Below, piece after piece: positions 11,324-50,854 of a DNA stretch of 64,000 nt. Each line of letters begins with the position of its first letter. Within the stretch, counting starts at the first letter, position 1. Source of the stretch: Robertmurraya sp. FSL R5-0851 (GTDB lineage Bacteria > Bacillota > Bacilli > Bacillales > Cytobacillaceae); NCBI RefSeq assembly GCF_038002965.1, contig NZ_JBBOOE010000002.1, positions 62,001-126,000 on the forward strand, written 5' to 3'. A program made the position numbers and the translations under genes. The notes beneath the pieces were generated by a model. That model saw only the letters and a list, made by a program, of their open reading frames with translations, did no database searches and was not told the origin of the DNA.

Positions 11324-12015
11324 GTGCGACACGTTACTCTATAAGTGAGAAATTCATGAAAAGAGTGGCTTAACCAAAGTTAAGTACAACTAATAAATTG
11401 AAATTGGGAATGAAGCCGTCATGCTGCGCTGAAACCAATTACCTAATACTCCTACATGCTTTTAAATCTGGTAGTGATTAAGAGTATGAAGCTAGGTAAA
11501 GTCGGCCGAATTTAACCTAAGTCCATATGGATATGGATAGAGATAGGTCGGGGTGCTACAAAATGGCTATGGTGAGAATGCTTCAACAGAAGCTGACGAA
11601 TCTGCGAATGAAAGGGCCTAGAGGATTAGCTTAGAGGAAACTCTTTGCACCGCAACAGCGGGGTGAATTACCGATTAGTAAAATTGTTGGTTATGAAAAT
11701 CGGGATGACTGGCTAAGAAGTCATAAATTCACAGGTTCAAAGCAGACACCTAAGGTCATATGTATAGCTAGATTTATTGGAACGTGGAAAGCAACAGACT
11801 CCTATTAAACGTCTACCACCGGGGAGGTTGCTATAAGGCTCTGCCGAAATGCATTTACTGTTGTGAGAGTAAGGGCACAGTACCTTTGAAATTATGGAAA
11901 CATAATGGAGGGATAGCCCTAAGTCTTGTGAAACACCAACTATTTGATTAAAAGTTGTAGCTCATATTTCGGGTAAGAAGGTGAGTAGTAATATCAGGAG
12001 TTGATATTCACACCG

Positions 12016-12690
12016 ATGAGCACAAGGGTTACTAGAAATAAAGTTTATTACAATTTCAGTGAAATTCAAAAAGAACTTTATGAACAAAGTAAAAGAGGTA
12101 AAACAAACTTTAAGGATCTAATGGATCTGATTTTATCAGATGAAAATATACTGCTTGCCTACAGAACCATTAAAAGTAATACAGGTTCAAAAACAAAAGG
12201 TACAGATGGATACAACATCATGCACATCGGAAAGTCAGACCAACAAACTTTCATTAAAACAATGAGAGAGATTGTTACTGATTATAAGCCTAAAGCTGTC
12301 CGACGGGTCTGGATACCCAAAGCAAATGGGAAACAAAGACCTCTTGGGATTCCGACAATAAGGGATAGAATTGTTCAGCAGATGTTTCTTCAAGTTCTAG
12401 AACCTATCTGTGAAGCAAAATTCTATAACCATTCATACGGATTTAGACCCTTAAGAACTACCAGACATGCTGTAGCCAGGGTACAGACTCTTATAAATAT
12501 CAATAAACTTCATTACGCAGTAGACATTGATATAAAAGGTTTCTTTGACCACGTGAACCATAATCTGCTTATCAAACAGTTATGGAATATTGGCATCAAA
12601 GACAAAAGAGTTCTTGCTGTTATCGGTAAAATGCTAAAAGCTCCCATTCAGGGCGAAGGTATACCAAAAGAAGGCGTGCCACAAGGTGGA
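12016..12690 (+). pseudogene. Group II intron reverse transcriptase, 5' part, split by RIT copy 1
   Basis: LtrA-type RT: RPLGIPTIRDRIVQQ, then the finger motif SYGFRP, then the first catalytic Asp region AVDIDIKGFFDHV, ending at VPQGG. The frame stops at 12699 inside the inserted element. Bases 12016-12690 are exactly 225 codons, and joining to 16167 restores the frame (375 codons including the stop), giving a 599-residue protein. AGGAG at 11995 is the nearest ribosome binding site; the ATG at 12016 is my choice, but the start is uncertain. Confidence 0.8.
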
Positions 12691-12726
12691 TTATGCTAAG
12701 CTTTGCATAATCCACCTTATGCAAAG
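12685..12726. other. RIT copy 1 left junction (att site)
   Basis: GGTGGA (12685-12690, target) is followed by the near-palindrome TTATGCTAAGCTTTGCATAA (12691-12710), then TCCACC (12711-12716), then the inner arm TTATGCAAAG (12717-12726). Both six-base cores are flanked by TTATGC or GCATAA arms. The same block, with the 20-mer reverse complemented, lies at the left of copy 2. Confidence 0.85.
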
Positions 12727-12806
12727 TAAAATATTATGCAAAGTAAACTTTCTAAACCCATAAATAATAAGGGGTTATATCCCATTTACTTTGCATAATT
12801 TCTGGC

Positions 12807-13832
12807 CTACTTTAATTCGGAAAGCCAAGTAAGCAATGCCTGATCCTTATTCCAGTCGGGAAGAGTGCTATCAATCAAATCAGGGTAAACATTTTCAATT
12901 GCCTTTCTTTTCGTCTCAGTATCTATTCTGGCGTAAATTTCTGTCGTCTTTATATCTACATGTCCAAGAAAATCACGTATGTATATGAGATTTACTCCTG
13001 CTTGTAGTAAATGCATTGCCTTCGAGTGACGAAACATATGGGGTTTCACTTTCGAAGGAACTAGGGTTGATGTTCTCCTAGCTAATTCAACATATTTTGT
13101 TATTATATAGGCAATCCCTTCCTTAGTAAGCTTGTTTTGCTGATTATTTGTAAAGAGAGGATATTCATTTTTCCATGGTTTATCCAGATTATTTTCGATA
13201 ATATAGCGTTCCAATAATGATACGGAATTTTTCAAAAGAGGAACTCGCCTTGTCTTATTTCCTTTTCCTGTTAATACAATCACTGCCGGATTTTCTAAGA
13301 TTACATCCCTTACTTTTATATCAATTAGTTCCTGCACCCTTGCGCCAGTATCATACAGAACACTCATCAATGTAAGGTCACGTCGACCCTTAATGCAGCC
13401 CCTTTCGGGCTGTTCTAGAAGTAGTTTCATAGCCTCTGGTGACAGATGCTCCACCACAGTTTTCTCTGCCTTTTTGGAGGGGATTGCGATTACTTTTTGA
13501 AAATGGAAAAGACCGGAAGGTTCTTCGGCCTGAACATAACGAAAAAAGGAATGAATCGCTGAAAGCCTCTGATTTCTAGTAGAGATGCTACATTTTCTAA
13601 CCTTTTCTAGCCAGCCCAGAAAGCCAATAAGCGTTTCACTTGAAAGAATATCTAAAGTAATCCTTTCTGCTCGAATGTTTTTCTTTTCTTGGCAATACTT
13701 TATCAAAAGTTTAAATGTATCACGATATGATTGAATGGTATTCCTACTGACATTTTTCTGTGACGGAAGGTACACCGAAAGAAATTCCGTAAGGTGCTTC
13801 GCAAAATCAGTTGGTTTCATCGTTATCACCAT
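12807..13832 (-). CDS. ritC: RIT tyrosine recombinase C, 341 aa (copy 1)
   Basis: Third gene of the trio. It has a SAM-like core-binding domain (about residues 8-120) and a catalytic domain with Arg in GARVQELIDI, the HMFRH box and LGHVDIKTTEIYARID with the nucleophilic Tyr, so all main catalytic residues are present. Its start overlaps the end of ritB by 26 bases, showing translational coupling. Two Met codons (residues 1 and 5) are possible starts. The three proteins probably act together in excision and integration of the element. Confidence 0.88.
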   Translation of the reverse strand: MVITMKPTDFAKHLTEFLSVYLPSQKNVSRNTIQSYRDTFKLLIKYCQEKKNIRAERITLDILSSETLIGFLGWLEKVRKCSISTRNQRLSAIHSFFRYVQAEEPSGLFHFQKVIAIPSKKAEKTVVEHLSPEAMKLLLEQPERGCIKGRRDLTLMSVLYDTGARVQELIDIKVRDVILENPAVIVLTGKGNKTRRVPLLKNSVSLLERYIIENNLDKPWKNEYPLFTNNQQNKLTKEGIAYIITKYVELARRTSTLVPSKVKPHMFRHSKAMHLLQAGVNLIYIRDFLGHVDIKTTEIYARIDTETKRKAIENVYPDLIDSTLPDWNKDQALLTWLSELK

Positions 13833-14793
13833 CTAATTGAGGAATCATTCCCGGATACCGCGTTTCAAGCCTTAATGTAATAGATGGAAACACATCCGCA
13901 GTCAAGCGCAGATAATAAGCAGTTTCTTTAAAGGAATCGTGACCCAAATACGTTTTAAGTACTGGAAGATATACCGTTAAATCCTTTTCTTCATCAACCC
14001 ATTTTTTCAGACAATGAACTGAATAAGAGTGGCGAAAGTCGTGGATACGAGGACCATTTCCTCTTCCACCATGTGAAATTCCAGCACTCCATAAAAACCT
14101 ACGGAAATTTTTATAGACATTTCCGGTCGTCATCGGTCTGTTATCAAGCGCAGGAAAGTAATAATCTTCGGCACTTGGATAAGGATGTACCATTTTCGAA
14201 TAAATCCGACAACGTTCCGTAAGGGACACCGACATTGGTACCAACCTGCTGTTATCTTTTTTAGATTGATTTATAGTCAGAATACCATTTTCAAGGTCAA
14301 CGTCAGCTACTTTGAGAAGCCTTGCCTCGGATACCCTTAAACCGCACATATAAATCATACGAAAGAACACGGGCATAATCAGATGTCTGTGTGGACATTC
14401 GGAACAGTACTTGCATTTTTCCGTTTCAGCAAAAAACCTTTCTAGTTCATCAAAAGAATAAATATACGGTACATATTGTTCCTCCGTAGGAAAGTATCCC
14501 TTGGGGATGATATATGCTTTAACTCCAATGGAATCCAGATATTTCCCAAACTGGCGGATGACTGATGCGCGTGAACATAAATTTGCTTGTGCCTCGTAAG
14601 TTTTTTTACTACACCAGTCTAATACGATTTCTTTAGTAAGTTCAGTGGCTTGGGGATACTTTTCCATTGTAAAACTGTCAAATCGATTTAAATCACGTGA
14701 ATCCCTATCATATTTATATCCAATAGCCTTTTTCAGTCCCACATGAGCTTGGATATGACTTTTAAAAGGGCCTTTATATATGATTTCACTCAT
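13807..14793 (-). CDS. ritB: RIT tyrosine recombinase B, 328 aa (copy 1)
   Basis: Second gene of the trio. The catalytic domain shows Arg in CGLRVSEARLL, the DFRHSYSVH box and LGHDSFKETAYYLRL with the Tyr. A CKYCSECPH cluster near residue 125 could bind zinc. The ATG at 14793 sits 8 bases after a GGAGGG and overlaps the ritA stop; a GTG one codon earlier is an alternative. Its role relative to A and C is not known from sequence. Confidence 0.88.
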   Translation of the reverse strand: MSEIIYKGPFKSHIQAHVGLKKAIGYKYDRDSRDLNRFDSFTMEKYPQATELTKEIVLDWCSKKTYEAQANLCSRASVIRQFGKYLDSIGVKAYIIPKGYFPTEEQYVPYIYSFDELERFFAETEKCKYCSECPHRHLIMPVFFRMIYMCGLRVSEARLLKVADVDLENGILTINQSKKDNSRLVPMSVSLTERCRIYSKMVHPYPSAEDYYFPALDNRPMTTGNVYKNFRRFLWSAGISHGGRGNGPRIHDFRHSYSVHCLKKWVDEEKDLTVYLPVLKTYLGHDSFKETAYYLRLTADVFPSITLRLETRYPGMIPQLDGDNDETN

Positions 14794-16021
14794 CACTCAA
14801 TCCCTCCTTAAAATCAAGGGAACATTCTTTCAACCTTTTGATGTCAACCTTTAAGTAAACTGCTGTTGAGTTTGTATCTACATGACCAAGGATATCTGAA
14901 ATGGTGGAAAGTGGTGTATCTTTTTCGAGAAGTATACTGGCCATGGTATGCCTAAGGGAATGCATTCCTCTTCTTTTTTTTAATGTAGGAATGTGTGCTA
15001 ATTCCATGTACCTTTTAATTAACTGATTTAAATGATCTCCTTCAGAAAAGGGCCCAAATGGTGCCATGTGCTTTACAAATACATAGGGGCTGTTTATTTT
15101 AGGACGACCGTACTTAAGATACTCAATAACTGCCCATCCCACCTCCGGTGTTAATGGAAGAGTTAAAGGCTGCCTAGTTTTTGATTGAGTAAATACAAGC
15201 CTTTTCTCAGCCCAGAGAAAGTGCTCCATTTTCAAATTTTTAATATCTGTACACCTTAAGCCGAGGCAACATGCTATTAATATAATTGCATAATCTCTTT
15301 TGCCCTTTGGACTCCCTCTATCAATGGCAGAGATTAACCTTTTCAATTCATCTTCTGTCCATACAGATGGAATACGGGTCTGTTTTCTTGCCTGAATCAT
15401 AGGCGTTTTTGAAGCAAAATCAATCTTTATTTCTTCTGTAACTAGGAGAAAGCGGAAAAAGGCACGCAAGGAACAGATATTTTGTTCTACTGTTTTGTAT
15501 GTATATCCCGCCAAGGTTTTAATGTAATCGTTAATCAATGTAAGATTGATTTCTTTACAATCTTTAACTTTCTGCGAAGAAAGATAATCCATGAATCTAG
15601 CAGATTGTTTTACATAATGGTCTATTGTGGCTTTGGAATAATCTTTATTTACACAGTATTGCTTAAAACGGTTACTAATTTCGATAAAGTAAAAATCCGT
15701 AAGGATTTCCTTATGCTTATAGTAGCGACGTAAAATAGTTGAGTGTAGTTGAAAATCACCAATCATTCGAATAATTCGAAGTTCTTGAGTCTCTGACTGT
15801 GTAAGAGATTTATCAAAATCTTTTTCGAGGATATGAAAGTATTTTTCAACAAACTTAATTCCCAACCCTTCCGAATAGTATGTTTCACCTTGTTCATGTG
15901 CAAATTGGAGCAGTTTCTGCCATCTACTTCGGTAAAACCTCATAGATCCCTCGGTATAGCCAAGCCGAATCATTTCTTGTTCTAGGTCCTGAATTAATGC
16001 ATCCAACGGTTTCTTTTGCAT
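14786..16021 (-). CDS. ritA: RIT tyrosine recombinase A, 411 aa (copy 1)
   Basis: First gene of the trio. The Met at 16021 has a GGGAGG site at good distance and is preferred to the open-frame start 14 codons earlier. It has an N-terminal helical domain, a core-binding domain (about residues 110-210) and a catalytic domain with Arg in LGLRCTDIKN, the SLRHTMAS box and LGHVDTNSTAVYLKVD with the Tyr. Transcription probably starts in the roughly 140-base end region that also holds recombinase-binding repeats. Confidence 0.88.
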   Translation of the reverse strand: MQKKPLDALIQDLEQEMIRLGYTEGSMRFYRSRWQKLLQFAHEQGETYYSEGLGIKFVEKYFHILEKDFDKSLTQSETQELRIIRMIGDFQLHSTILRRYYKHKEILTDFYFIEISNRFKQYCVNKDYSKATIDHYVKQSARFMDYLSSQKVKDCKEINLTLINDYIKTLAGYTYKTVEQNICSLRAFFRFLLVTEEIKIDFASKTPMIQARKQTRIPSVWTEDELKRLISAIDRGSPKGKRDYAIILIACCLGLRCTDIKNLKMEHFLWAEKRLVFTQSKTRQPLTLPLTPEVGWAVIEYLKYGRPKINSPYVFVKHMAPFGPFSEGDHLNQLIKRYMELAHIPTLKKRRGMHSLRHTMASILLEKDTPLSTISDILGHVDTNSTAVYLKVDIKRLKECSLDFKEGLSDE

Positions 16022-16150
16022 ATGTATTTCCTCCCAAAATGATAATTTGAGCATCAAGCTCATAATTCATTTTCGGTTATTATGCAAAGTAAATAGACTA
16101 GAATCGTTGAATTAATAACTTTTTTATTGGTTACTTTGCATAATCACTTT

Positions 16151-16166
16151 CTTTGCATAAGGTGGA
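16151..16166. other. RIT copy 1 right junction
   Basis: The terminal arm CTTTGCATAA (16151-16160) is followed by GGTGGA (16161-16166), after which the RT coding sequence resumes with ATT. Inward, CTTTGCATAA at about 16133-16143 and TTATGCAAAG at about 16080-16089 repeat the arm. Confidence 0.85.
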
Positions 16167-17291
16167 ATTCTCTCACCTCTTTTATCGAACGTTGTATTAA
16201 ATGACCTAGATAAATGGGTGGCCGACCAATGGGATACTTTCAACACTGAGCACAAATATGCTGGTAATGATGTAAAAATCCGTGAACTAAGAAGAAAGAC
16301 CAAGCTCAAAGAAGGTTACATCGTACGATACGCTGATGATTTTAAAGTTATGACTCGAGACCATAAGACAGCATGGAAATGGTTTCATGCCATTAAAGGC
16401 TATCTTAAGGATCGACTCAAACTTGATATTTCACCAGAAAAATCTAAAGTGATAAATCTTCGTAAACAGAGCTCTGAATTTCTTGGTTTCAAAATAAAGG
16501 CTGTACCAAAAGGAAAGAAATATGTTGCAAACAGTAATGTGTCTGATAAGAAAAAGATTCAAATCAAAGAAACCCTTAAAGAACGAATAAAAAGGATACA
16601 AAAACAACCTACTCCCGAAAATGTGAGGATATACAATGCAACTGTATTAGGCGTACATCAATTCTTTAAGTATGCCACACACGTTGTTCACGATTTCAAG
16701 GATATAGAATATCGGCTCTTAAGAACTCTTAAATCTCGGTTATCGAAAGTAGCTAAATATGGATTTCCAAACAACTTAAAAAGTAAGTCAACTTACCTTA
16801 GGTTTTACAGTGGAAAGAGAAAGACACACAAGATAGGGGACAATGATTATCTTTTCCCTATCGGCGAAATTAGGACAACATCTAATTTCAACTTTACTCA
16901 ATCCCTTAATCCATATGATATGTCAGACCATTTTTCTTGGGATATAGAAATCATTAAACTAATGAAATCTCAAATCCCAAGTCGCTCGGTAGAATACATG
17001 GATAACAGACTATCAGTCTATTCCATGCAAAAAGGATTGTGTGCAATTACTAAAAAGCCCTTAAAAGCTGAAGACGTACATTGTCACCACAAACTACCAA
17101 TCTACTTGGGGGGAACGAATGAATTCAATAACCTTGTTGTAATACACAAGGATGTTCACAGACTCATCCACGCTACTAATACCGATACCATACAAAAATA
17201 TTTGAGAGTCCTAATGCTTAACTTCACTGAATTAAAGAAGTTAAACCAACTAAGAAGCCTTTGTAAACTTGAAAAAGTAGTTGCTGTGTAG
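16167..17291 (+). pseudogene. Group II intron reverse transcriptase, 3' part with HNH endonuclease domain
   Basis: Continues the RT from ILSPLLSNV through the catalytic YADDF box (near 16330), the thumb or maturase region (about 16500-16900), and a C-terminal HNH nuclease domain with CAITKKPL, HCHHKLPIYLGG and a final His-Arg-Leu-Ile-His. No start codon follows the element directly; the Met at 16218 is only where an open frame could begin. Full activity therefore needs exact excision of the RIT element. Confidence 0.8.
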
Positions 17292-17416
17292 CAAGATGGA
17301 ACGCCGTATGAGTTGAAAGGCTCACGTACGGTGTGGAGCGGGGGAAAAGGTCAGTCTGAAATGACTGTTTGCGGAGGAAGTTATAAATAACTATCCAAAG
17401 ACTTACCTATCGCTAT

Positions 17417-29879: not shown

Positions 29880-31026
29880 CGATAACCTGCTTAATATCGA
29901 ACTGAATATCGTGTTGGGCAAAAAAGTGTTGAGCTAAAAGATAAATCGGATTGCCGTCCACCACAAACGTAAGGTCTTTAGGAATATCCTTCATCTTCAC
30001 TAAGACATCATCAATCGCACGGATCGCCGTAGCTGTATCCCGATTTGGTGATACTGGGTAAGAGAGAATAATCTTTTTCACCGCATCAAAGAAGAAAAAC
30101 AAGTAATGCCAACGGCCGTTCACCCTGATATAGGTTTCGTCCCCGCAGAACTGGTCAGAAAGTTCATACGGGTAGTAATCTACGTAAGGCTTAAGTGTAA
30201 GGGCTACTGCATTCTCGTAATTTAAAATGCTTTGATGCGATATAGATACCCCGTGAACATCTTTCATCAGTGCTGCTGTTTTACGGGCCGAAAGGCCATA
30301 GTTAACATGGTAGGTTAAAATGAGCCCTAATGTATGTGGCGAAACATATAACCTTGATAAATCTACCTTTGGCTTCTGTGGAGTAGACTTAGACAATGGC
30401 TGAAAATCAATTCGAAACTGTCGGTAAATGTATCTAATCTTAAAGGCTTGAGGGTCCTTTTTAAACTGTTTCTTCTCTTTTGAAGACATACCATTCAGTT
30501 TTCTTTGGTAATAGGAACAGTCATTATTCTTGCACTTATACACGTCAAAGTCTTTTCGCGCCTTGACTTTCTCAAGTGTTTTAGAACAATGAGGACACTT
30601 CAAAATAGCCTCTTTCAAATAGCGGCTCTTTTCGTTAAAAACACAAGTACACACCTTACATTGATACTGTCCTTTGCCTCCATTATTGGCATAGAGATAA
30701 TCCGATTGAGCACCGCACTTTGGGCAACTCATTGATGTAGACACCGCTGTCTTTACATTAGAACGCCTTTGAACAGGTTTTAAATGCTTACCGTTCTTCT
30801 CCAGATATTCTGTAAGAAGAATACGATAATCATGTTTCTGGAGCGCTTCGATGATCGGAAGATCATCCACCTGAAGTTTACGGTAAGGTTTATTTACAGG
30901 AGTTTCTTCAGGCTTTTCAAACATGCCCTTCCCAATAAGCAGGGTAAGTAATGTTCGAATTACCTGATCTTGATACTTGATAAATTCCATTAAATAAGTT
31001 AATAATTGAGGGTACAAACTTGTCAC
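29880..31026 (-). pseudogene. N-terminal part of the IS6-like transposase, copy A
   Basis: About 380 residues: helical N-terminus, two zinc-ribbon-like Cys4 clusters (CPKCGAQ with CKVC, and CPHCSK with CKNNDC), then the first DDE Asp in FCGDETYIRV and the second in FVVDGNPIY. The frame is interrupted at DIKQVI by the IS3-family element. Compare the intact copy at 33885-35369. Confidence 0.85.
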
Positions 31027-31190
31027 TTCCTAGCTTTTAGGGATTAAGTGTTCGGTGTCGTAACCTCACTTTTATCCTAAAACTATGGGGGTGGCAAGTT
31101 TTTTGCATTTAAACCCCTTTATATCAAGGATTATTAACTTTTTTAATATAAAAGTTTTGACAATACGTGTAACTAAGGAGAGGGTAAAAT

Positions 31191-33628: not shown

Positions 33629-35466
33629 GGTAGTGTCAAAAGATTTATGAAAACTACCTAAAGGGTTAGTTTCTCTCCTATTTACTGGATGGAGATGCGC
33701 CGCAATCGCTCTTGACAAACACGCCAATGGTTTGAGGATTGTTTAACAAGGGCGAAGGGAACAAAAGAAGGCATACCAAATAAGCCCTTGGTTGTTTCCA
33801 TTTTAAACCATTGGCAAGTTCGGTTTGTCAAGAGTTCGCTCCGCCGATTGCTGAATTAGCTTAAGGGCTCAGCTAAACAAAAAGTTAGGCTTGTCTTTGC
33901 TCTACTATCCATTGTTGTGCTAATCCAATGAGCTTTGTCCAACGTGCTGGCATTGTTGGAAGCCCCTTGAGTTCTGGATTCACTACGGGCACTTTTCCTT
34001 CTAAGGCGGCATGCGGACGCAAAAAGTTAAAGTAGGCCGTAAATAAGGTGACGTATGAAATGGAACCATGTTCAGAGCCGAATCCATGAGTGGAGCGATA
34101 ATTGCCCTTAAAGGTGCGGTTAAGTCTCTCAATTATTTGTTTCAGTGGTCTATATTCGGTCGAAACAGGGTCCTCATTGGTTAATCCAATGACCTGCTTC
34201 ACATCGAATGAAATCCCATGTTGAGCGAAGAAATGTTGGGCTAAAAGATAGATTGGATTCCCGTCTACCACAAAGGTCAGATTTTCTGGAATCTCTTTCA
34301 TCTTGATTAAGACCTCATCAATTGCTCGAATGGCTGTTGCTGTGTCTCGATTAGGCGACACCGGATACGAAAGAATAATCTTTTTCACGGCGTCAAAAAA
34401 GAAAAATAAATAATGCCATCGACCGTTTACTCTGATATACGTTTCATCACCGCAGAATTGGTCTGAAAGTTCATAGGGATAGTGATCCACATAAGGTTTA
34501 AGTAATAAAGCTACGCTATTTTCGTAGTTCAATACAGTCTGATGTGAAATCATCACTCCGTGTACGTCCTGCATAATCGCAGCTGTTTTACGGGCCGAAA
34601 GGCCATAGTTTACATGATAGGTTAGGATCAATCCTAATGTATGTGGGGATGCATAAATCTTTGATAAGTCCACGGCCGGCAGTTCTGGTGATTCCTTGGA
34701 TAACGGCTGGAAATCGATATAAAACTGACGGAAAATGTATCTCAATTTAAATGCTTGAGGGTCCTTTTTGAACCTTTTCTTTTCTTTTGAAGTCATCCCA
34801 TTGAGCTTCTTTTGATAATAAAAACAGTCATTGTTCTTGCACTTAAACACGTGAAAATCTTTTCTTTCTTTTATTTTCTCGAGAGTCTTGGAACAATGAG
34901 GACACTTCAGGATGGCCTCCTTAGAGTAACGGTTCTTTTCACTGAAAAGTTCTGTACACACCTTGCATTGATACTGACCTTTATCTCCATTGTTGGCATA
35001 AAGATAATCCGATGGAGCACCACACTTTGGACAGTTCATGGCTTTAGGTACGGAAACTTTTGCATTCTTACGCCTTTGAACAGGTTTAAGTGGTTTCCCG
35101 TTCTTCTCTAGATATTCACTAAGAAGAACTCGATAATCAAGCTGTTCCAGAACTTCAATGACCGGAAGGTCGTCCACTTGAAGTTTTCGATATGGTTTAT
35201 TTACGGGCTGTTCAGTAGGCTTATCAAACATACTCTTACCAATCAATAAAGTAAGCAATGTTCGAATGAGTTGTTCTTGATAGTTTATAAAAGTTAATAA
35301 ATAGGTTATAATTTGAGGGTACAAATTGTCACTTCCTTTTCTAGGTTGTTGAGAGTGTCGTAACCTCAATTATCCTTAGAATTCAGGGGGTGGCAATTTT
35401 TTTGCTTATAAAGCCCTCTTAGATAGGATTTAATAACCTATTTACTATAAAAGTTTTGACAATACG
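33629..35466 (-). mobile_element. IS6-like element, copy B, intact, 1838 bp
   Basis: Starts GGTAGTGTCAAAA and ends TTTTGACAATACG, flanked by the 8-bp repeat ACATATTG (33621-33628 and 35467-35474). One intact transposase gene is inside. A GCTCTTGACAAAC-type internal repeat and GAGCGATTGCGG-like words near 33690-33850 also occur in copy A at 27860-28020. Confidence 0.88.
33885..35369 (-). CDS. IS6-like DDE transposase with zinc ribbons, 494 aa
   Basis: Intact counterpart of the split copy A. The N-terminal 80 residues are helical, followed by two Cys4 zinc-ribbon-like clusters (CPKCGAPSDY with CKVC; CPHCSK with CKNNDC) and the DDE core: Asp in FCGDETYIRV, Asp in FVVDGNPIY, Glu near RPLKQIIERLNRTFKGNYR. 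Longer than classical IS6 transposases (about 230 residues) because of the zinc-binding N-terminus, so family placement rests on the core and the 8-bp duplications. The true start may be a Met a few codons in. Confidence 0.85.
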   Translation of the reverse strand: MRLRHSQQPRKGSDNLYPQIITYLLTFINYQEQLIRTLLTLLIGKSMFDKPTEQPVNKPYRKLQVDDLPVIEVLEQLDYRVLLSEYLEKNGKPLKPVQRRKNAKVSVPKAMNCPKCGAPSDYLYANNGDKGQYQCKVCTELFSEKNRYSKEAILKCPHCSKTLEKIKERKDFHVFKCKNNDCFYYQKKLNGMTSKEKKRFKKDPQAFKLRYIFRQFYIDFQPLSKESPELPAVDLSKIYASPHTLGLILTYHVNYGLSARKTAAIMQDVHGVMISHQTVLNYENSVALLLKPYVDHYPYELSDQFCGDETYIRVNGRWHYLFFFFDAVKKIILSYPVSPNRDTATAIRAIDEVLIKMKEIPENLTFVVDGNPIYLLAQHFFAQHGISFDVKQVIGLTNEDPVSTEYRPLKQIIERLNRTFKGNYRSTHGFGSEHGSISYVTLFTAYFNFLRPHAALEGKVPVVNPELKGLPTMPARWTKLIGLAQQWIVEQRQA

Positions 35467-36951: not shown

Positions 36952-39039
36952 TCACCTTTTTTTCATAATCCGATCTATTCGACCAAATATAACATTGCCG
37001 CCTTCTAAAGTGTTTAATATATCTAAATATCTGTCCAAGTTCTTTTTGTTTTTCTCAGCAATATCATTTCTTCCTCTTGTTTCTAGTAATTCGATAGTTT
37101 TTGAAGTTGTTTTTACTAAGAGGTTGTATTTTTCTATATCTAAGTCCGAAAAGCCAATTGCTAAATCTTTACATGGACTTCCACCATTACATGTTAAACA
37201 TGGAGGTTCTTGTGAGTAGGGGCAATTACCATTGATCCTGGCATGACAAGTTCCATAAGGGTTATCAATTGCACTTAATTTATGATCTTGCCATAGTAAC
37301 TCAAGTATATCTTCTGGTACGTCCTCGTTAGGTCTTATTTCCCGCATTTCACCATTTAAATCAAAATGAAAGATACCCTGTTTAATAGCATTTTCAAAAG
37401 CAGTTCTCTTTGTTTCGTCTAATAAACGTGCATACCTTAGAGTCATTTCTGGTGACGCATGGGCTAGTAGCTCTTGTACAGTTAAAATGTCTGTACCGTT
37501 GTTTAATAATTTCATTGCATACGTATGTCGAAATTGGTGTGCTCCAAAGTGGTAGAGATTTCCGTTCTCATCAACTATATTTTTTTCTCTGGCTAATTTA
37601 TTTAGTTTTGATCGAACCCATTCTTGTGTGTATGGTAACCCTTTCCTAGTACCTTTATATCTTATAAATATAAATTTTTCGGGATTATTATCCTCTGTAC
37701 TATTTTGTTCAGCAATTCTTATAAGTGATGTAATTATATTTGCTAATTCCTCATCAATTGGTATTCTATGGCCTTGAACAATTGTTTTTTCAATATCAGT
37801 AACAATATAAAACTTTCCATTTAACTTTACTAAACAGTCTTGTTTAAGTAGTAATAAATCTGAAATTCGTAATCCTGTTTTAAATGCAATCCAAACAATA
37901 GGTTGCACATCTTTATGTAAATCATTGAGTTGAAGAAAGAGTTGTTCAATTACAAAGTCTGGTATATGGTCTATTTGGTCATATGGTTTCTTTTTTTGTT
38001 TAGGTTTATCAGAAGGAAATATAAGGACCTTTACTGAACGCCTTGGGGAAATTCGTGATTCTGTCTCTTCTAAATACATTAAGAACTGTTTAAGCGCAAT
38101 GATACCTTGAATAATATAACGCTCCTGATTTGATATTTTACTATTTTGTTTAGAGTATTTTGTCAACTGTTCAATAAATTCTAAGATATGTTTTCTGCTT
38201 AGTAACGATAAATCTCTCCAATTAGGTTCTTTAATATCAACAAAATTAAAAAATGAACGTAAATGTTGCAAATAACCAATCGCTGTTTCTGCTACAAGAT
38301 ATTTTGATATTAATTTCTTTTTAAAATAGTTTTTTAACTCTTTACGAAAGATACTATTTTTAATATCTGAAAAGACTAAGTAGGGGATAGTTTTTGATTT
38401 ATTATATTTAACACCGTAAAGATTATGCAGTTCTTTAACATTCCATCTATCCTTATCCCATTCCTCTCTTGTATCACTATATTTTTTATATTCATTAAAT
38501 AATCTTACAAGAAAATTAGAAAGGGTACTCCTTAGGGTAAAAGTCTTGTCTTGGTCCCTAATGTGGCTAGTTCTTTCTTTTGCATAACCTTTTTGACTAA
38601 TCCAGAAATTCCATTCTCTGTCTGCTTCCTCTATGTCGAGATCGTCTAATGATTGTAAGGCAGGATACTGTTGATTAATAAAAGATTGCAATCTTCTAAA
38701 ATTAGTTGAATTAGCATGGAACGTCGAGGATAAACTCCATTCTTCATTAAATACCTTTTTGTGAAAAATATATTTAAATTGTAGATTTAGTAGATTATTT
38801 TTAATACAAAAACAGATTTGAGCATTATGAGAGTATCGTTCTCGAAAGTTCTTATATTGTTGGCTGAACTGTTCTATCTCCTTGAATTTGTCTACATTCC
38901 AAGTATCATTATCTAAAAAATATGAATCTGTTTTAGTTTCATATGACAAACTACCATCATCATTAAATTTCTTTACTACATACATAGAAAGCTCTTGTGT
39001 AACAGTGCTATCAAATCTTCTTTTCTTTAAATCAATCAT
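36952..39039 (-). CDS. tnpB: Tn554-type tyrosine recombinase TnpB, 695 aa
   Basis: Second gene of the module; its ATG directly follows the tnpA stop. A long N-terminal region (about 380 residues) precedes the catalytic domain with Arg in TGLRISDLLLL, the HQFRHTYAMK box and LLAHASPEMTLRYAR with the Tyr. A Cys cluster near residue 610 (CHARINGNCPYSQEPPCLTC) could bind zinc. Length matches the large TnpB of Tn554. Confidence 0.88.
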   Translation of the reverse strand: MIDLKKRRFDSTVTQELSMYVVKKFNDDGSLSYETKTDSYFLDNDTWNVDKFKEIEQFSQQYKNFRERYSHNAQICFCIKNNLLNLQFKYIFHKKVFNEEWSLSSTFHANSTNFRRLQSFINQQYPALQSLDDLDIEEADREWNFWISQKGYAKERTSHIRDQDKTFTLRSTLSNFLVRLFNEYKKYSDTREEWDKDRWNVKELHNLYGVKYNKSKTIPYLVFSDIKNSIFRKELKNYFKKKLISKYLVAETAIGYLQHLRSFFNFVDIKEPNWRDLSLLSRKHILEFIEQLTKYSKQNSKISNQERYIIQGIIALKQFLMYLEETESRISPRRSVKVLIFPSDKPKQKKKPYDQIDHIPDFVIEQLFLQLNDLHKDVQPIVWIAFKTGLRISDLLLLKQDCLVKLNGKFYIVTDIEKTIVQGHRIPIDEELANIITSLIRIAEQNSTEDNNPEKFIFIRYKGTRKGLPYTQEWVRSKLNKLAREKNIVDENGNLYHFGAHQFRHTYAMKLLNNGTDILTVQELLAHASPEMTLRYARLLDETKRTAFENAIKQGIFHFDLNGEMREIRPNEDVPEDILELLWQDHKLSAIDNPYGTCHARINGNCPYSQEPPCLTCNGGSPCKDLAIGFSDLDIEKYNLLVKTTSKTIELLETRGRNDIAEKNKKNLDRYLDILNTLEGGNVIFGRIDRIMKKR

Positions 39040-45138: not shown

Positions 45139-45672
45139 ATATTCCAAAAACGCGGCAGTTGTGCGGCCGAGCCTAGGTCGTATCATATAGCGGGTGGGAT
45201 TCCCGCCGAGTAAGAACTAGCCATTCGCTCGTAGCGAGTCTTGGAGGGCTAAAGGTAACTTTAGTCTTTAAGCGTAGACAGTTAGGAAGTGGGCCGAAAG
45301 CCAAATGGTTGAAGGGATTGAGCTCCATAAACTTTAGTAGACTGAGAGGGCTGATACCTTAACTGCGGTAGAAAGCAACATTTTATTCTTCATCAAAGGC
45401 AAGAAGAATAAAACCTCTCTGGAGTCAGAGACCTTGGCACGCTTCACATTGATATGATACGGCAACTCGGGAGACCCTACCGGTCTTTTCTATTTTTTTT
45501 TAGAAGAGTATGGTGTACAAGCGATAACAAGCAAGGAAACCAAATGCCGTGTAGGGAGTCGGATAGCAGCGTAGTACCAATGAAGTTGGGTAATGCCGAT
45601 GGAGGGAAGGCTAGCTACCAGTTATCACCCTCACTAGGGACACATTAACTACACACAGAGGTAGGAATAATA

Positions 45673-46311
45673 ATGGAAACAAAACTACTAAGGATAGCAG
45701 AATTAGCAAAGTCTCAGCCTAATATGAAATTTACATCACTTGCTCATTTATTAAATGAGCAATCACTAACACAGTGTCATCATGGATTGCCAAATAGAAA
45801 GGCAACGGGTGTTAACGGAACGACTAAAGAACAATACAGTGAAAACCTAGAAGAAAACATAATTGATTTGGTAAGTAGGCTTAAAAGCAAGAGCTATCGC
45901 CCTGTTCCAGTAAGACGAATGTATATCCCAAAGCTCAATTCAAATAAGAAAAGACCGTTGGGCATACCTGAACATGAAGATAAAATTGTACAAAAGGGAA
46001 TTACCAAAATACTAAATTCTATCTATGAAAATGACTTCCTAGATTGTTCATTTGGGTTTCGTCCTAATAGAAACTGCCATGATGCGCTGAAGATACTGAA
46101 TCTTTACATTGAAAAGAGAGCAGTAAGTTATGTAGTAGATGTAGATATTAAAGGTTTCTTTGACAACGTTGATCACAGATGGATGATGGAGTTTCTAAAA
46201 CTTCGAATCGCTGACCCTAACCTACTGAGAATAATCAACAGGTTTCTTAAAGGTGGATACATGGAGGAAGGTAAGAAGTATAAGACAGACAATGGTACAC
46301 CGCAAGGAGGA
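45673..46311 (+). pseudogene. Group II intron reverse transcriptase, 5' part, split by RIT copy 2
   Basis: ATG with GAGGTAGGAA upstream. RT motifs: PVRRMYIPKLN, KRPLGIPEHEDKIVQKG, FGFRPNRNCHDAL and the first catalytic Asp in VVDVDIKGFFDNVDH, ending at TPQGG. 213 codons up to 46311 join exactly to 230 codons (with stop) from 49788, restoring 442 residues. The insertion point is the same codon as in the other intron's RT. Confidence 0.82.
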
Positions 46312-46347
46312 TTATGCAAAGCTTAGCATAATCCACCTTATGCAAAG
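46306..46347. other. RIT copy 2 left junction (att site)
   Basis: GGAGGA (46306-46311, target version with A at position 3), then TTATGCAAAGCTTAGCATAA (46312-46331), TCCACC (46332-46337) and TTATGCAAAG (46338-46347). The 20-mer is the reverse complement of that in copy 1. The target keeps GGAGGA here whereas the right side has GGTGGA, showing which bases came with the element. Confidence 0.85.
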
Positions 46348-46476
46348 AAAGTGATTATGCAAAGTAACCAATAAAAAAGTTATTAATTCAACGATTCTAG
46401 TCTATTTACTTTGCATAATAACCGAAAATGAATTATGAGCTTGATGCTCAAATTATCATTTTGGGAGGAAATACAT

Positions 46477-47712
46477 ATGCAAAAGAAACCGTTGGATGCA
46501 TTAATTCAGGACCTAGAACAAGAAATGATTCGGCTTGGCTATACCGAGGGATCTATGAGGTTTTACCGAAGTAGATGGCAGAAACTGCTCCAATTTGCAC
46601 ATGAACAAGGTGAAACATACTATTCGGAAGGGTTGGGAATTAAGTTTGTTGAAAAATACTTTCATATCCTCGAAAAAGATTTTGATAAATCTCTTACACA
46701 GTCAGAGACTCAAGAACTTCGAATTATTCGAATGATTGGTGATTTTCAACTACACTCAACTATTTTACGTCGCTACTATAAGCATAAGGAAATCCTTACG
46801 GATTTTTACTTTATCGAAATTAGTAACCGTTTTAAGCAATACTGTGTAAATAAAGATTATTCCAAAGCCACAATAGACCATTATGTAAAACAATCTGCTA
46901 GATTCATGGATTATCTTTCTTCGCAGAAAGTTAAAGATTGTAAAGAAATCAATCTTACATTGATTAACGATTACATTAAAACCTTGGCGGGATATACATA
47001 CAAAACAGTAGAACAAAATATCTGTTCCTTGCGTGCCTTTTTCCGCTTTCTCCTAGTTACAGAAGAAATAAAGATTGATTTTGCTTCAAAAACGCCTATG
47101 ATTCAGGCAAGAAAACAGACCCGTATTCCATCTGTATGGACAGAAGATGAATTGAAAAGGTTAATCTCTGCCATTGATAGAGGGAGTCCAAAGGGCAAAA
47201 GAGATTATGCAATTATATTAATAGCATGTTGCCTCGGCTTAAGGTGTACAGATATTAAAAATTTGAAAATGGAGCACTTTCTCTGGGCTGAGAAAAGGCT
47301 TGTATTTACTCAATCAAAAACTAGGCAGCCTTTAACTCTTCCATTAACACCGGAGGTGGGATGGGCAGTTATTGAGTATCTTAAGTACGGTCGTCCTAAA
47401 ATAAACAGCCCCTATGTATTTGTAAAGCACATGGCACCATTTGGGCCCTTTTCTGAAGGAGATCATTTAAATCAGTTAATTAAAAGGTACATGGAATTAG
47501 CACACATTCCTACATTAAAAAAAAGAAGAGGAATGCATTCCCTTAGGCATACCATGGCCAGTATACTTCTCGAAAAAGATACACCACTTTCCACCATTTC
47601 AGATATCCTTGGTCATGTAGATACAAACTCAACAGCAGTTTACTTAAAGGTTGACATCAAAAGGTTGAAAGAATGTTCCCTTGATTTTAAGGAGGGATTG
47701 AGTGATGAGTGA
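46477..47712 (+). CDS. ritA: RIT tyrosine recombinase A, 411 aa (copy 2)
   Basis: Identical in protein sequence to the copy at 14786-16021, with catalytic Arg (LGLRCTDIKN), SLRHTMAS box and Tyr (NSTAVYLKVD). The GGGAGG site supports this Met. The preceding 130 bases hold three arm repeats and probably the promoter. Overlaps ritB by 8 bases. Confidence 0.88.
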   Translation: MQKKPLDALIQDLEQEMIRLGYTEGSMRFYRSRWQKLLQFAHEQGETYYSEGLGIKFVEKYFHILEKDFDKSLTQSETQELRIIRMIGDFQLHSTILRRYYKHKEILTDFYFIEISNRFKQYCVNKDYSKATIDHYVKQSARFMDYLSSQKVKDCKEINLTLINDYIKTLAGYTYKTVEQNICSLRAFFRFLLVTEEIKIDFASKTPMIQARKQTRIPSVWTEDELKRLISAIDRGSPKGKRDYAIILIACCLGLRCTDIKNLKMEHFLWAEKRLVFTQSKTRQPLTLPLTPEVGWAVIEYLKYGRPKINSPYVFVKHMAPFGPFSEGDHLNQLIKRYMELAHIPTLKKRRGMHSLRHTMASILLEKDTPLSTISDILGHVDTNSTAVYLKVDIKRLKECSLDFKEGLSDE

Positions 47713-48691
47713 AATCATATATAAAGGCCCTTTTAAAAGTCATATCCAAGCTCATGTGGGACTGAAAAAGGCTATTGGATATAAATATGATAGGGATTCA
47801 CGTGATTTAAATCGATTTGACAGTTTTACAATGGAAAAGTATCCCCAAGCCACTGAACTTACTAAAGAAATCGTATTAGACTGGTGTAGTAAAAAAACTT
47901 ACGAGGCACAAGCAAATTTATGTTCACGCGCATCAGTCATCCGCCAGTTTGGGAAATATCTGGATTCCATTGGAGTTAAAGCATATATCATCCCCAAGGG
48001 ATACTTTCCTACGGAGGAACAATATGTACCGTATATTTATTCTTTTGATGAACTAGAAAGGTTTTTTGCTGAAACGGAAAAATGCAAGTACTGTTCCGAA
48101 TGTCCACACAGACATCTGATTATGCCCGTGTTCTTTCGTATGATTTATATGTGCGGTTTAAGGGTATCCGAGGCAAGGCTTCTCAAAGTAGCTGACGTTG
48201 ACCTTGAAAATGGTATTCTGACTATAAATCAATCTAAAAAAGATAACAGCAGGTTGGTACCAATGTCGGTGTCCCTTACGGAACGTTGTCGGATTTATTC
48301 GAAAATGGTACATCCTTATCCAAGTGCCGAAGATTATTACTTTCCTGCGCTTGATAACAGACCGATGACGACCGGAAATGTCTATAAAAATTTCCGTAGG
48401 TTTTTATGGAGTGCTGGAATTTCACATGGTGGAAGAGGAAATGGTCCTCGTATCCACGACTTTCGCCACTCTTATTCAGTTCATTGTCTGAAAAAATGGG
48501 TTGATGAAGAAAAGGATTTAACGGTATATCTTCCAGTACTTAAAACGTATTTGGGTCACGATTCCTTTAAAGAAACTGCTTATTATCTGCGCTTGACTGC
48601 GGATGTGTTTCCATCTATTACATTAAGGCTTGAAACGCGGTATCCGGGAATGATTCCTCAATTAGATGGTGATAACGATGAAACCAACTGA
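47705..48691 (+). CDS. ritB: RIT tyrosine recombinase B, 328 aa (copy 2)
   Basis: Identical to the copy at 13807-14793: CGLRVSEARLL, DFRHSYSVH and LGHDSFKETAYYL, plus the Cys cluster CKYCSECPH. Coupled to ritA through an overlapping start preceded by AAGGAGGG. Confidence 0.88.
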   Translation: MSEIIYKGPFKSHIQAHVGLKKAIGYKYDRDSRDLNRFDSFTMEKYPQATELTKEIVLDWCSKKTYEAQANLCSRASVIRQFGKYLDSIGVKAYIIPKGYFPTEEQYVPYIYSFDELERFFAETEKCKYCSECPHRHLIMPVFFRMIYMCGLRVSEARLLKVADVDLENGILTINQSKKDNSRLVPMSVSLTERCRIYSKMVHPYPSAEDYYFPALDNRPMTTGNVYKNFRRFLWSAGISHGGRGNGPRIHDFRHSYSVHCLKKWVDEEKDLTVYLPVLKTYLGHDSFKETAYYLRLTADVFPSITLRLETRYPGMIPQLDGDNDETN

Positions 48692-49691
48692 TTTTGCGAA
48701 GCACCTTACGGAATTTCTTTCGGTGTACCTTCCGTCACAGAAAAATGTCAGTAGGAATACCATTCAATCATATCGTGATACATTTAAACTTTTGATAAAG
48801 TATTGCCAAGAAAAGAAAAACATTCGAGCAGAAAGGATTACTTTAGATATTCTTTCAAGTGAAACGCTTATTGGCTTTCTGGGCTGGCTAGAAAAGGTTA
48901 GAAAATGTAGCATCTCTACTAGAAATCAGAGGCTTTCAGCGATTCATTCCTTTTTTCGTTATGTTCAGGCCGAAGAACCTTCCGGTCTTTTCCATTTTCA
49001 AAAAGTAATCGCAATCCCCTCCAAAAAGGCAGAGAAAACTGTGGTGGAGCATCTGTCACCAGAGGCTATGAAACTACTTCTAGAACAGCCCGAAAGGGGC
49101 TGCATTAAGGGTCGACGTGACCTTACATTGATGAGTGTTCTGTATGATACTGGCGCAAGGGTGCAGGAACTAATTGATATAAAAGTAAGGGATGTAATCT
49201 TAGAAAATCCGGCAGTGATTGTATTAACAGGAAAAGGAAATAAGACAAGGCGAGTTCCTCTTTTGAAAAATTCCGTATCATTATTGGAACGCTATATTAT
49301 CGAAAATAATCTGGATAAACCATGGAAAAATGAATATCCTCTCTTTACAAATAATCAGCAAAACAAGCTTACTAAGGAAGGGATTGCCTATATAATAACA
49401 AAATATGTTGAATTAGCTAGGAGAACATCAACCCTAGTTCCTTCGAAAGTGAAACCCCATATGTTTCGTCACTCGAAGGCAATGCATTTACTACAAGCAG
49501 GAGTAAATCTCATATACATACGTGATTTTCTTGGACATGTAGATATAAAGACGACAGAAATTTACGCCAGAATAGATACTGAGACGAAAAGAAAGGCAAT
49601 TGAAAATGTTTACCCTGATTTGATTGATAGCACTCTTCCCGACTGGAATAAGGATCAGGCATTGCTTACTTGGCTTTCCGAATTAAAGTAG
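48666..49691 (+). CDS. ritC: RIT tyrosine recombinase C, 341 aa (copy 2)
   Basis: Identical to the copy at 12807-13832, with GARVQELIDI, HMFRHSKAMH and LGHVDIKTTEIYARID. Starts 26 bases before the end of ritB. Downstream are only the arm repeats and the right junction, so the element carries no cargo gene. Confidence 0.88.
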   Translation: MVITMKPTDFAKHLTEFLSVYLPSQKNVSRNTIQSYRDTFKLLIKYCQEKKNIRAERITLDILSSETLIGFLGWLEKVRKCSISTRNQRLSAIHSFFRYVQAEEPSGLFHFQKVIAIPSKKAEKTVVEHLSPEAMKLLLEQPERGCIKGRRDLTLMSVLYDTGARVQELIDIKVRDVILENPAVIVLTGKGNKTRRVPLLKNSVSLLERYIIENNLDKPWKNEYPLFTNNQQNKLTKEGIAYIITKYVELARRTSTLVPSKVKPHMFRHSKAMHLLQAGVNLIYIRDFLGHVDIKTTEIYARIDTETKRKAIENVYPDLIDSTLPDWNKDQALLTWLSELK

Positions 49692-49771
49692 GCCAGAAAT
49701 TATGCAAAGTAAATGGGATATAACCCCTTATTATTTATGGGTTTAGAAAGTTTACTTTGCATAATATTTTA

Positions 49772-49787
49772 CTTTGCATAAGGTGGA
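49772..49787. other. RIT copy 2 right junction
   Basis: CTTTGCATAA (49772-49781) then GGTGGA (49782-49787); the RT then resumes with GTA ATA TCT. The T of GGTGGA differs from the host's GGAGGA on the left side. Confidence 0.85.
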
Positions 49788-50477
49788 GTAATATCTCCGA
49801 TATTAGCCAATGTATATCTCCATTATGTTCTCGACTTATGGTTTGAAAAAGTGGTTAGGAAACAATGTAAAGGGCAGGCATATATAGTAAGATACGCAGA
49901 TGATTTTGTATGTTGTTTTCAACATAAGAGCGAAGCCCAGCAATTCTTCCATTCATTAAAGCTTAGATTAAAGAAATTTAATTTGGAAATAGCCGAGGAT
50001 AAAACGAAAATTATTTCCTTTGGTCGGTTTGCAGTACATAACGCAAAGCGAGATAGAAATAGCAAACCAGACACATTTGATTTCTTAGGATTTACCCACT
50101 ATTGCGGAAAAAGTAAAGAAGGAAAATTTCGTGTGAAACGAAAATCCAGTAGGAAGAAAGTTCAAGGCAAACTAAAAGAAACTAAAGAATGGTTGAAGAT
50201 TAATAGAAATAAATCTATTCATATGATTATGGATAGACTTAAACGCTCGCTCACTGGTTATTACAACTATTATTGCATGACAGATAACATCCAAACTGTT
50301 AACAATTTCAAAGAGAGACTTGAAAACTTACTATTTAAATGGCTAAACAGAAGGAGCCAAAGAAAGTCCTTTACATGGAACAAATTTAATCTCTTCCTCA
50401 GTAGATATCCACTTCCTTTACCAAGAGTTAAGGTAAATATCTATGAACTTAGAGAAGAGATTAGCTATATTCTGTAA
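49788..50477 (+). pseudogene. Group II intron reverse transcriptase, 3' part (RT-maturase)
   Basis: Continues VISPILANVYLHYVLDLWFEK, the catalytic YADDFV box (near 49895), FLGFTHYCGKS and a maturase region ending in SRYPLPLPRVK, a typical intron RT C-terminus. No endonuclease domain. It has no start of its own directly at the junction, so it needs precise loss of the RIT element to be made as full-length RT. Confidence 0.8.
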
Positions 50478-50854
50478 TGATAACTAGGAGGAGCCGTGTG
50501 CGTAAATAGCGCAAGCACGGTTCTGTGAGGGGGAGGAGAACAACTTACCGTAAGGTAGGAAGGCTCCTTTCTACTCGACTAGTTCATTAGGAGAGTGAAA
50601 AAATAATCAGGATGAAAACAACTAAGCTAGTAGGTTTGAATTAATAAAAATCAATAAAAACTAAATTTCTTAAAATTAGTATTTATAATAAAGAGTTGAT
50701 TATTTATCAACAAATGAGAGAATTTTTTGATAAAAATTACTGCTACAAAGGTTGGATATATATGTTAAAATAAATGTGCGATTAGTATAAAGGATGCAGG
50801 ATACTATACCTATATATAGGAGATTAAGTATGGTTGAAAGGAGTATTAAAAGAT

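Follow-up and report, generated by a model that had tools for sequence, protein, structure and literature searches.

RIT elements in the PQGG codons of group II intron reverse transcriptases, and mobile-element motifs as targets of related elements

The window analysed here is a stretch of 64,000 nucleotides of Robertmurraya sp. FSL R5-0851 (contig NZ_JBBOOE010000002.1, positions 62,001 to 126,000), lying within a 555-kb contig of a 5.3-Mb genome. It carries two RIT elements in opposite orientation (copies A and B), each with the genes ritA, ritB and ritC and each inserted into the reverse transcriptase (RT) gene of a group II intron (Table 1). Passages of PMC3414803 describe RIT elements, from Cupriavidus metallidurans and others, as three overlapping tyrosine recombinase genes of about 3.5 kb with an inverted repeat and a palindrome near the ends; RITs are also described in parts of PMC8138268. 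The blocks 12711-16166 and 46332-49787 were 100% identical across 3456 bp, in line with a first-pass annotation, made from the sequence alone, that had reported two copies encoding identical recombinase proteins. With resolved ends each full element measured 3476 bp (copy A 12691-16166, copy B 46312-49787), of which 3444 bp form the core when the 6-mers and a 20-bp palindrome are subtracted. The length and the bounds of copy B had been given correctly in that annotation; its start of copy A, 12685, included the left 6-mer of the host. RitA (425 aa), RitB (329 aa) and RitC (341 aa) all matched PF00589, and their genes overlapped by 11 and 26 bp with the starts assigned here. No further long gene was present within the element, and the four-gene set with Tfp and Srap/GinD was absent. 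The R..HxxR..Y catalytic set was recognised by eye in all three recombinases (e.g., HSLRH, LGH and Y in RitA), where these residues presumably have their usual roles. In a tblastn search, RitA matched a named RIT, that of C. necator pHG1, with 34.0% identity over 94% of its length (E 2e-64). This kinship fits the assignment to RITs made earlier, as do the tyrosine recombinase domains, the gene order ritA-ritB-ritC, the size of about 3.5 kb, the inverted ends and the palindrome.

Table 1. Features of the two RIT copies and their host introns (window positions).
Feature	Position	Strand	Basis or remark
Group II intron A, RNA domains 1-4 part	11385..11562	+	Rfam RF02004, 111.9 bits
Host RT N-terminal piece, copy A, ends ...GVPQGG	11992..12690	+	RVT_1; contiguous with C piece on intact RT L095
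Copy A O1 6-bp overlap GGTGGA, Gly-Gly codons	12685..12690	+	Sequence comparison of copies
Copy A 20-bp imperfect palindrome, two end arms head to head	12691..12710	.	Reverse complement of that of copy B
Copy A O2 inverted internal 6-mer TCCACC	12711..12716	-	
Copy A end arm TTATGCAAAG, ritC side	12717..12726	.	
Copy A ritC, tyrosine recombinase	12807..13832	-	PF00589
Copy A ritB, tyrosine recombinase	13807..14796	-	PF00589
Copy A ritA, tyrosine recombinase	14786..16063	-	PF00589
Copy A end arm CTTTGCATAA, ritA side	16151..16160	.	
Copy A O3 6-bp overlap GGTGGA	16161..16166	+	Host-side 6-mer, assigned by empty-site/genealogy rule
Host RT C-terminal piece, copy A, begins ILSPLLSN	16167..17288	+	RVT_1
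Group II intron A, domains 5-6	17299..17416	+	Rfam RF00029
Group II intron B, RNA domains 1-4 part	45197..45434	+	Rfam RF02005, 154.3 bits
Host RT N-terminal piece, copy B, ends ...GTPQGG	45649..46311	+	RVT_1
Copy B O1 6-bp overlap GGAGGA, brought in by element	46306..46311	+	Empty homologues: GGTGGA or GGTGGT
Copy B 20-bp imperfect palindrome	46312..46331	.	
Copy B O2 inverted internal 6-mer TCCACC	46332..46337	-	
Copy B end arm TTATGCAAAG, ritA side	46338..46347	.	
Copy B ritA	46435..47712	+	Identical to copy A
Copy B ritB	47702..48691	+	Identical to copy A
Copy B ritC	48666..49691	+	Identical to copy A
Copy B end arm CTTTGCATAA, ritC side	49772..49781	.	
Copy B O3 6-bp overlap GGTGGA, host's own 6-mer	49782..49787	+	Empty homologues
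Host RT C-terminal piece, copy B, with GIIM maturase domain	49788..50474	+	RVT_1, PF08388
Group II intron B, domains 5-6	50489..50579	+	Rfam RF00029

Read in the direction of the RT gene, host sequence ending in CCNCAA was followed by a 6-mer GGNGGN (O1), the 20-bp imperfect palindrome, an inverted 6-mer (O2), the arm TTATGCAAAG, approximately 3.4 kb of element, the arm CTTTGCATAA, another GGNGGN (O3) and again the host. The palindrome consists of two arms head to head and forms, with the inverted 6-mer, a 26-bp end unit that the first-pass description did not contain. Halves of RVT_1 flanked both window copies, with group II RNA domains D1-D4 upstream and D5-D6 downstream of each. When the RT pieces of copy A were aligned singly to one of the genome's intact RTs, the alignment stopped at residue 225 and resumed at 226, PQGG occupying residues 222-225. 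The host RTs of copies A and B shared only 35% identity in the N piece and 28% in the C piece, which agrees with the claim of dissimilar hosts.

Six copies of the window RIT were present in the genome (all candidates were scored), with no difference across their 3444-bp cores. All six sat at one codon pair, the GGNGGA-type Gly-Gly codons of PQGG that had been named as the insertion point, their hosts ending in PQGG and restarting with (I/V)(L/I)SP; this agreement excludes coincidence. Differences among the copies were confined to O1, O2, O3 and the direction of the palindrome, the latter tracking the orientation of the element. RVT_1 identified 12 RT loci, six whole and six broken, with all six breaks at profile position 121-125; five of the six whole RTs had an unused PQGG site. 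The six hosts belonged to four RT groups, with identities down to 35% for the N piece and 27% for the C piece.

Natural empty sites were found on plasmids. Ten plasmid records matched the upstream flank of copy B, and the six that were fetched (Peribacillus frigoritolerans, P. asahii, P. simplex, Mesobacillus foraminis, Niallia sp. and a record labelled Arthrobacter citreus) all contained an uninterrupted intron with exactly 6 bp between flanks 81-92% identical to those of copy B; in the Mesobacillus and Niallia introns the RT is not annotated. The earlier statement that the flanks rejoin to an RT was thus corroborated for both copies, for A on the intact RT and for B by these homologues. The 6-mer was GGTGGA in five introns and GGTGGT in one. 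Because copy B and its sister copy L024 also have GGTGGA as their O3, while their O1 differ, the 6-mer of the host appears to be kept at the far end and O1 to be carried in. Overlap 6-mers can differ at up to three of six bases, as at L078 (GGGGGA vs. GGGTCC), unless L078 changed after insertion.

Relatives were collected by RitA searches, in which all genome counts include the centre genome. RitA matches were present within the family in 13 of 193 genomes (E 1e-40), within the order in 17 of 397 (1e-30) and within the class in 13 of 398 (1e-60); the RitA of a second RIT family of the source genome had matches in 40 of 348 genomes of the phylum (1e-30). In the order, class and phylum searches the best four or five candidates per genome were scored, and further copies may exist; one place of the phylum search (G1471:C76) was left out. 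Two samplings of Pseudomonadota gave a RIT match in 1 of 299 and 4 of 349 genomes. Further RitA matches came from nine genome contigs and 18 plasmid records; nine of the latter were included, and those left out were from Agrobacterium vitis/Allorhizobium (seven), Cupriavidus sp. P-10 and Mesorhizobium sp. AR07, together with a second H16 record. Among viral contigs no relative of the family 1 (window) RitA was found, and the family 2 RitA matched one locus, L118, which was not delimited. The window copies and fetched loci yielded 147 RitA anchors, 129 of them complete trios, after removal of three duplicates (L069, L073 and L075, on the same contigs as L050, L049 and L054). The survey leaves out L094-L117 (short loci; L112-L116, which duplicate loci already in the collection; and L117, a second RIT of its genome). 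A scan for the end structure that was blind to the host gene returned 92 end pairs, 75 of which reached an att score of at least 44. Among the 17 pairs under this limit, 11 had a mobile-element motif or gene (RT, IstB, IS21-type, IS3, IS66), one was masked and five were unclear. The target rule was measured mostly in Bacillota.

All 22 members of the window clade delimited at this score, from Bacillota, Rhodococcus plasmids and two proteobacterial metagenome-assembled genomes, sat at RT PQGG. RVT_1 was matched by 40 of their 44 host pieces, and group II RNA accompanied both window copies as well as 19 of 20 further RT loci. The motif itself varied in two hosts (LQGG at L119; PQGS, via O1, at L071), and the element lay in the direction of its host in 13 cases and opposite to it in nine. 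Another 12 clade elements were not delimited at this score: 10 of them had an RT on one or both sides, one was masked by Ns (L079) and one was a truncated copy beside another RIT (L074). A majority of relatives outside RT genes would have spoken against the proposed specificity for PQGG; within this clade that outcome did not occur. That proposal holds for the clade and was too narrow for RITs at large, since other clades use other mobile-element motifs; the first-pass observation was right, and its interpretation was right but too modest.

Overall, the sites of the 75 delimited RITs fell in 67 host clusters, and 71 of them lay in intron domain V or in a conserved motif of a mobile-element gene, according to target labels that we assigned from motif and family. 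Besides the 22 RT sites there were 16 at the Walker A and six at the Walker B motif of IstB, 16 at the E-motif (K-G-x-V/I-E) of IS21-type transposases, three at IstA DNL-K, two in IS3, three in IS66, one in a Y1 transposase and two in group II intron domain V, the remainder being two amidoligase sites, one DNA methylase and one unknown. The IstB profile was matched by 38 of 40 pieces (20 of the 22 IstB sites; L083 and L184b were left out, and their Walker A label stands on weaker grounds, with IstB C-halves on both sides of L083 and an element piece of only about 0.8 kb in L184b). NCBIfam IS21 models matched 26 of 32 transposase pieces (16 of 19 sites; L061-L063, with hosts identical to L060, were left out), and in Pfam the same pieces matched at most 10 per family (Mu-transpos_C_2 10, rve 7). 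Pfam named the IS3, IS66, Y1, amidoligase and methylase hosts on ten pieces (L139, whose site was read by hand, and L178 were left out). The targeted residues are catalytic in these families, except that the IS3 D-W-Y and IS66 C-A-H motifs are conserved and may not be. Outside these motifs, L138 and L139 interrupt an amidoligase HxHxD motif (two copies) and L182 a DNA cytosine methylase, and the target of L144 was not recognised. In two members of a distant RIT clade the element end adjoined the 3' end of domain V, part of the group II intron ribozyme core (L067:8436-8469, E 0.0064; L068:8393-8430, E 0.034); both matches were below the Rfam gathering score, and L068 had D1-D4 on the same strand as domain V (1e-9). 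Insertion at this domain means that the target need not be protein-coding.

The source genome itself contains further RIT families. Family 2 was present in three copies (L025, L026 and L027), all at the Walker A Gly-Lys codons of istB, and the three genes they break are those that fill the Pfam IstB profile as two halves. No whole istB spanning the full Pfam profile was found in the genome; four more partial matches to the model, three above the cut-off, lie in longer frames, and we take them for other ATPases. Family 3 had one copy, L028, which interrupts the A-K-G-K-I-E-R motif of a transposase; with its genes split it falls short of the score limit and so is missing from the 75 sites. The split, between ritB and ritA, is due to an insertion with IS66-like genes (L028:3190-9038).

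The distribution of targets followed the phylogeny of the recombinases. In a tree built from 51 distinct RitA proteins, 13 target labels required 13 changes (minimum 12), compared to a mean of 32.8 after shuffling, and none of 200 shuffles was as low. The RT clade and the Walker A clade each fell on one side of a branch with support of 100/99. Two changes each were needed for the IS21 E-motif (through the long-branched L159), Walker B and IS3; several distant RitA sequences have long branches and an uncertain placement. As judged from these sequences, there is nearly one target per RitA clade.

The 6-mers allowed donors and descendants to be compared. Under the rule considered, the (O1,O2) pair of a child equals (O3,O2) of its donor with the same orientation, or (O2,O3) with reversed orientation. 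Eleven multi-copy families were available, seven of which, with 24 copies, had variable 6-mers. A donor fitting the rule was present in the same genome for 17 of the 24 copies, one mutual pair (G1512) included, and for two G066 copies there was none. Full shuffles gave a mean of 7.4 (0 of 20,000 reached 17), shuffles of O3 only 11.1 (3 of 20,000) and shuffles of orientation 13.1 (45 of 20,000). In all 11 links in which O1 differs from O2 the orientation was as predicted; the reverse occurred in none. A circle that keeps the O1 of the donor was rejected, explaining 11 copies vs. 17 and none in G262, G1485 and G142. In-place inversion as the sole source of both orientations was likewise dismissed, as the palindrome turns with the element in eight of the nine families with both orientations and an asymmetric palindrome, G1601 being the exception. 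For the window lineage, the 6-mers suggest the descent L021 -> L024 -> copy B and L023, followed by copy B -> copy A and L022; the donor of L022 could equally be copy A.

Comparison of the copies establishes the precision of the site, the clade-wide target, the 6-bp empty sites, the 6-bp exchange region and the orientation rule. From these we infer a circular intermediate, a strand-fixed exchange as in the strand-biased circularizing integrative elements (SEs), and copy-out. The element would leave as a circle in which two inverted crossover sites (arm-6-arm) flank the 20-bp palindrome, one with the internal O2 as its 6-mer and the other with a 6-mer taken from the host side of the donor (O3). 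Integration via either site would set the orientation; the palindrome would always land on the same side of the target, and the 6-mer of the new host would remain at the far end as O3. Since a donor and its descendants occur side by side in one genome, the element probably moves by copy-out, or else a sister copy restores the donor. With this circle included, it is very probable that the RIT trio recognises DNA encoding PQGG-x-x-SP of intron RTs and inserts there with a 6-bp GGNGGN crossover. For RITs in general we consider it likely, with less assurance, that all are hyperparasites of mobile DNA, each lineage tied in a wobble-tolerant way to one near-invariant mobile-element sequence (RT PQGG, IstB Walker A or B, DDE catalytic codons, Y1 transposase or intron domain V), moving by copy-out of a two-site circle and keeping in its 6-mers a log of earlier hosts. 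Such targets would often be multi-copy, dispensable to the cell and hard to mutate without loss of mobility.

Several observations weigh against these interpretations. Neither transposition nor the circle was observed directly. Nearly half of the RitA anchors (72 of 147) were not delimited at the score limit, 27 of them without a collected host gene on either side and several at contig ends, and the limit of 44 was itself chosen after a first look at the results. Four of the 75 sites, those in amidoligase, methylase and unknown hosts, were outside any recognised mobile-element motif. The two copies of G1601 differ in their normalised palindrome (and by 34 bases in their elements). The 14-base pattern CCNCARGGNGGNNT occurred at 19 places in the genome, as often as a reversed control pattern; 11 were in RTs, six of them used, and the eight outside RTs were untouched (hypergeometric P 0.017). 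This pattern alone was accordingly rejected as the source of specificity. Recognition through likeness to the element's own arms was also rejected: host arms matched them at 3.41 and 2.69 of 10 positions, against a background of 2.58 and 2.66.

Other explanations differ in how much of the data they accommodate. The shared position could stem from one ancestral insertion into an RT, spread by the introns through retrohoming or plasmid recombination. Some hosts are indeed close, the introns of copy B and L024 being 95/92% identical as DNA, the RTs of L022 and L023 92/86% identical as proteins, and the four G293 copies sitting in identical hosts; nevertheless, the divergence among the four host RT groups, set against cores without a difference, rules out common descent of an intron-plus-RIT composite for most copies, and both orientations at RT sites and the 67 host clusters speak against it too, leaving it very improbable. 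Near-random insertion with selective retention in dispensable mobile genes would suit hosts that are mostly dispensable, and the pattern sites left unused may be in genes that are needed. Selection cannot, however, fix one codon pair, nor one 6-bp target for nearly each RitA clade, and this codon-level precision refutes the explanation, to which we give practically no credence.

Two further alternatives concern movement and role. Targeting may be as described and movement conservative cut-and-paste, the observed donors having been regained from sister chromosomes or plasmid copies. Ordinary excision with a double-stranded circle could yield the same junctions, but all members of the inferred chain L021 -> L024 -> copy B -> copy A persist in one genome, and the related SEs leave no empty site according to the relevant passages of PMC10214605; we regard cut-and-paste as possible, though unlikely. 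Somewhat less likely still is that RITs serve mainly as a weapon or immunity that disables rival mobile elements, with a site selected for destroying the enzyme: this genome has three disrupted IstB genes and 6 of its 12 RT loci interrupted, yet conservation by itself also makes a site a durable place to land.

The target of Tn554 lies in radC. Inteins and homing endonucleases occupy the best-conserved codons of active sites, P-loops for example, and inteins leave the host protein intact by splicing out. RITs differ from both of the latter in breaking the host protein and in using recombinases, and from Tn554 in their gene set (RitA/B/C rather than TnpA/B/C). In the relevant passages of PMC10214605 the Tn554 family, like RITs, has a set of three genes for transposition, with tyrosine recombinases, and its target is fixed. 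Those passages also report that SEs and GInts have several tyrosine recombinases and a 6-bp spacer, and that in SEs the target 6-mer is at one end and a carried 6-mer at the other. The RITs studied here share the 6-bp spacer and the host 6-mer at a fixed end, a likeness of working and not of membership; SEs and GInts have four genes including Tfp/Srap, and a 20-bp palindrome with a second crossover site is not mentioned in those passages. RITs themselves are already known; what appears new is their targeting of mobile-element motifs. Single insertions in a Tn6049-like transposase gene, IS66 tnpA and radC are recorded in parts of PMC3414803 and PMC2864759, and Table 1 of PMC10214605 lists RIT target specificity and movement as not tested; the passages of this literature state neither a target rule nor a core site, an overlap or a mechanism. 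Among open-licence PMC papers no description of a RIT targeting rule was found, Ricker 2013 (the main RIT paper) and Nielsen 2017 being outside the scope of that search.

If correct, the interpretation provides a target rule and a testable mechanism for a widespread family whose mobility is unproven in the laboratory, and it would account for some 'broken' transposases and RTs. It would describe an arms race that the prey can hardly escape because its own active site is encoded at the place of landing. The 6-mers would permit jump-by-jump genealogies from one genome sequence, and trios reading different conserved coding sequences would be material for studying asymmetric target choice by tyrosine recombinases.

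Some further observations were made on individual loci. At L032 (RT), L037 and L083 (both IstB) and L044, the same half of the host gene was found on both sides of the RIT, pointing to genome rearrangement by recombination between RIT copies. L030 (C. necator pHG1) and L031, whose ends are not fully delimited, abut by eye a sequence coding for R-Y-Y-R-P, which looks like the end of a different tyrosine recombinase, the one with the catalytic tyrosine. In the window, positions 65-183 hold domains 5-6 of a third group II intron, and an intact RT starts just upstream of the window at C2:60539. A 77.6%-identical repeat with IS240-like DDE transposase genes occupies 29882-31167 and 34189-35466. Two tyrosine recombinases of 695 and 378 aa are encoded on the minus strand at 36952-40176, a pair that we take to resemble a Tn554-like element.

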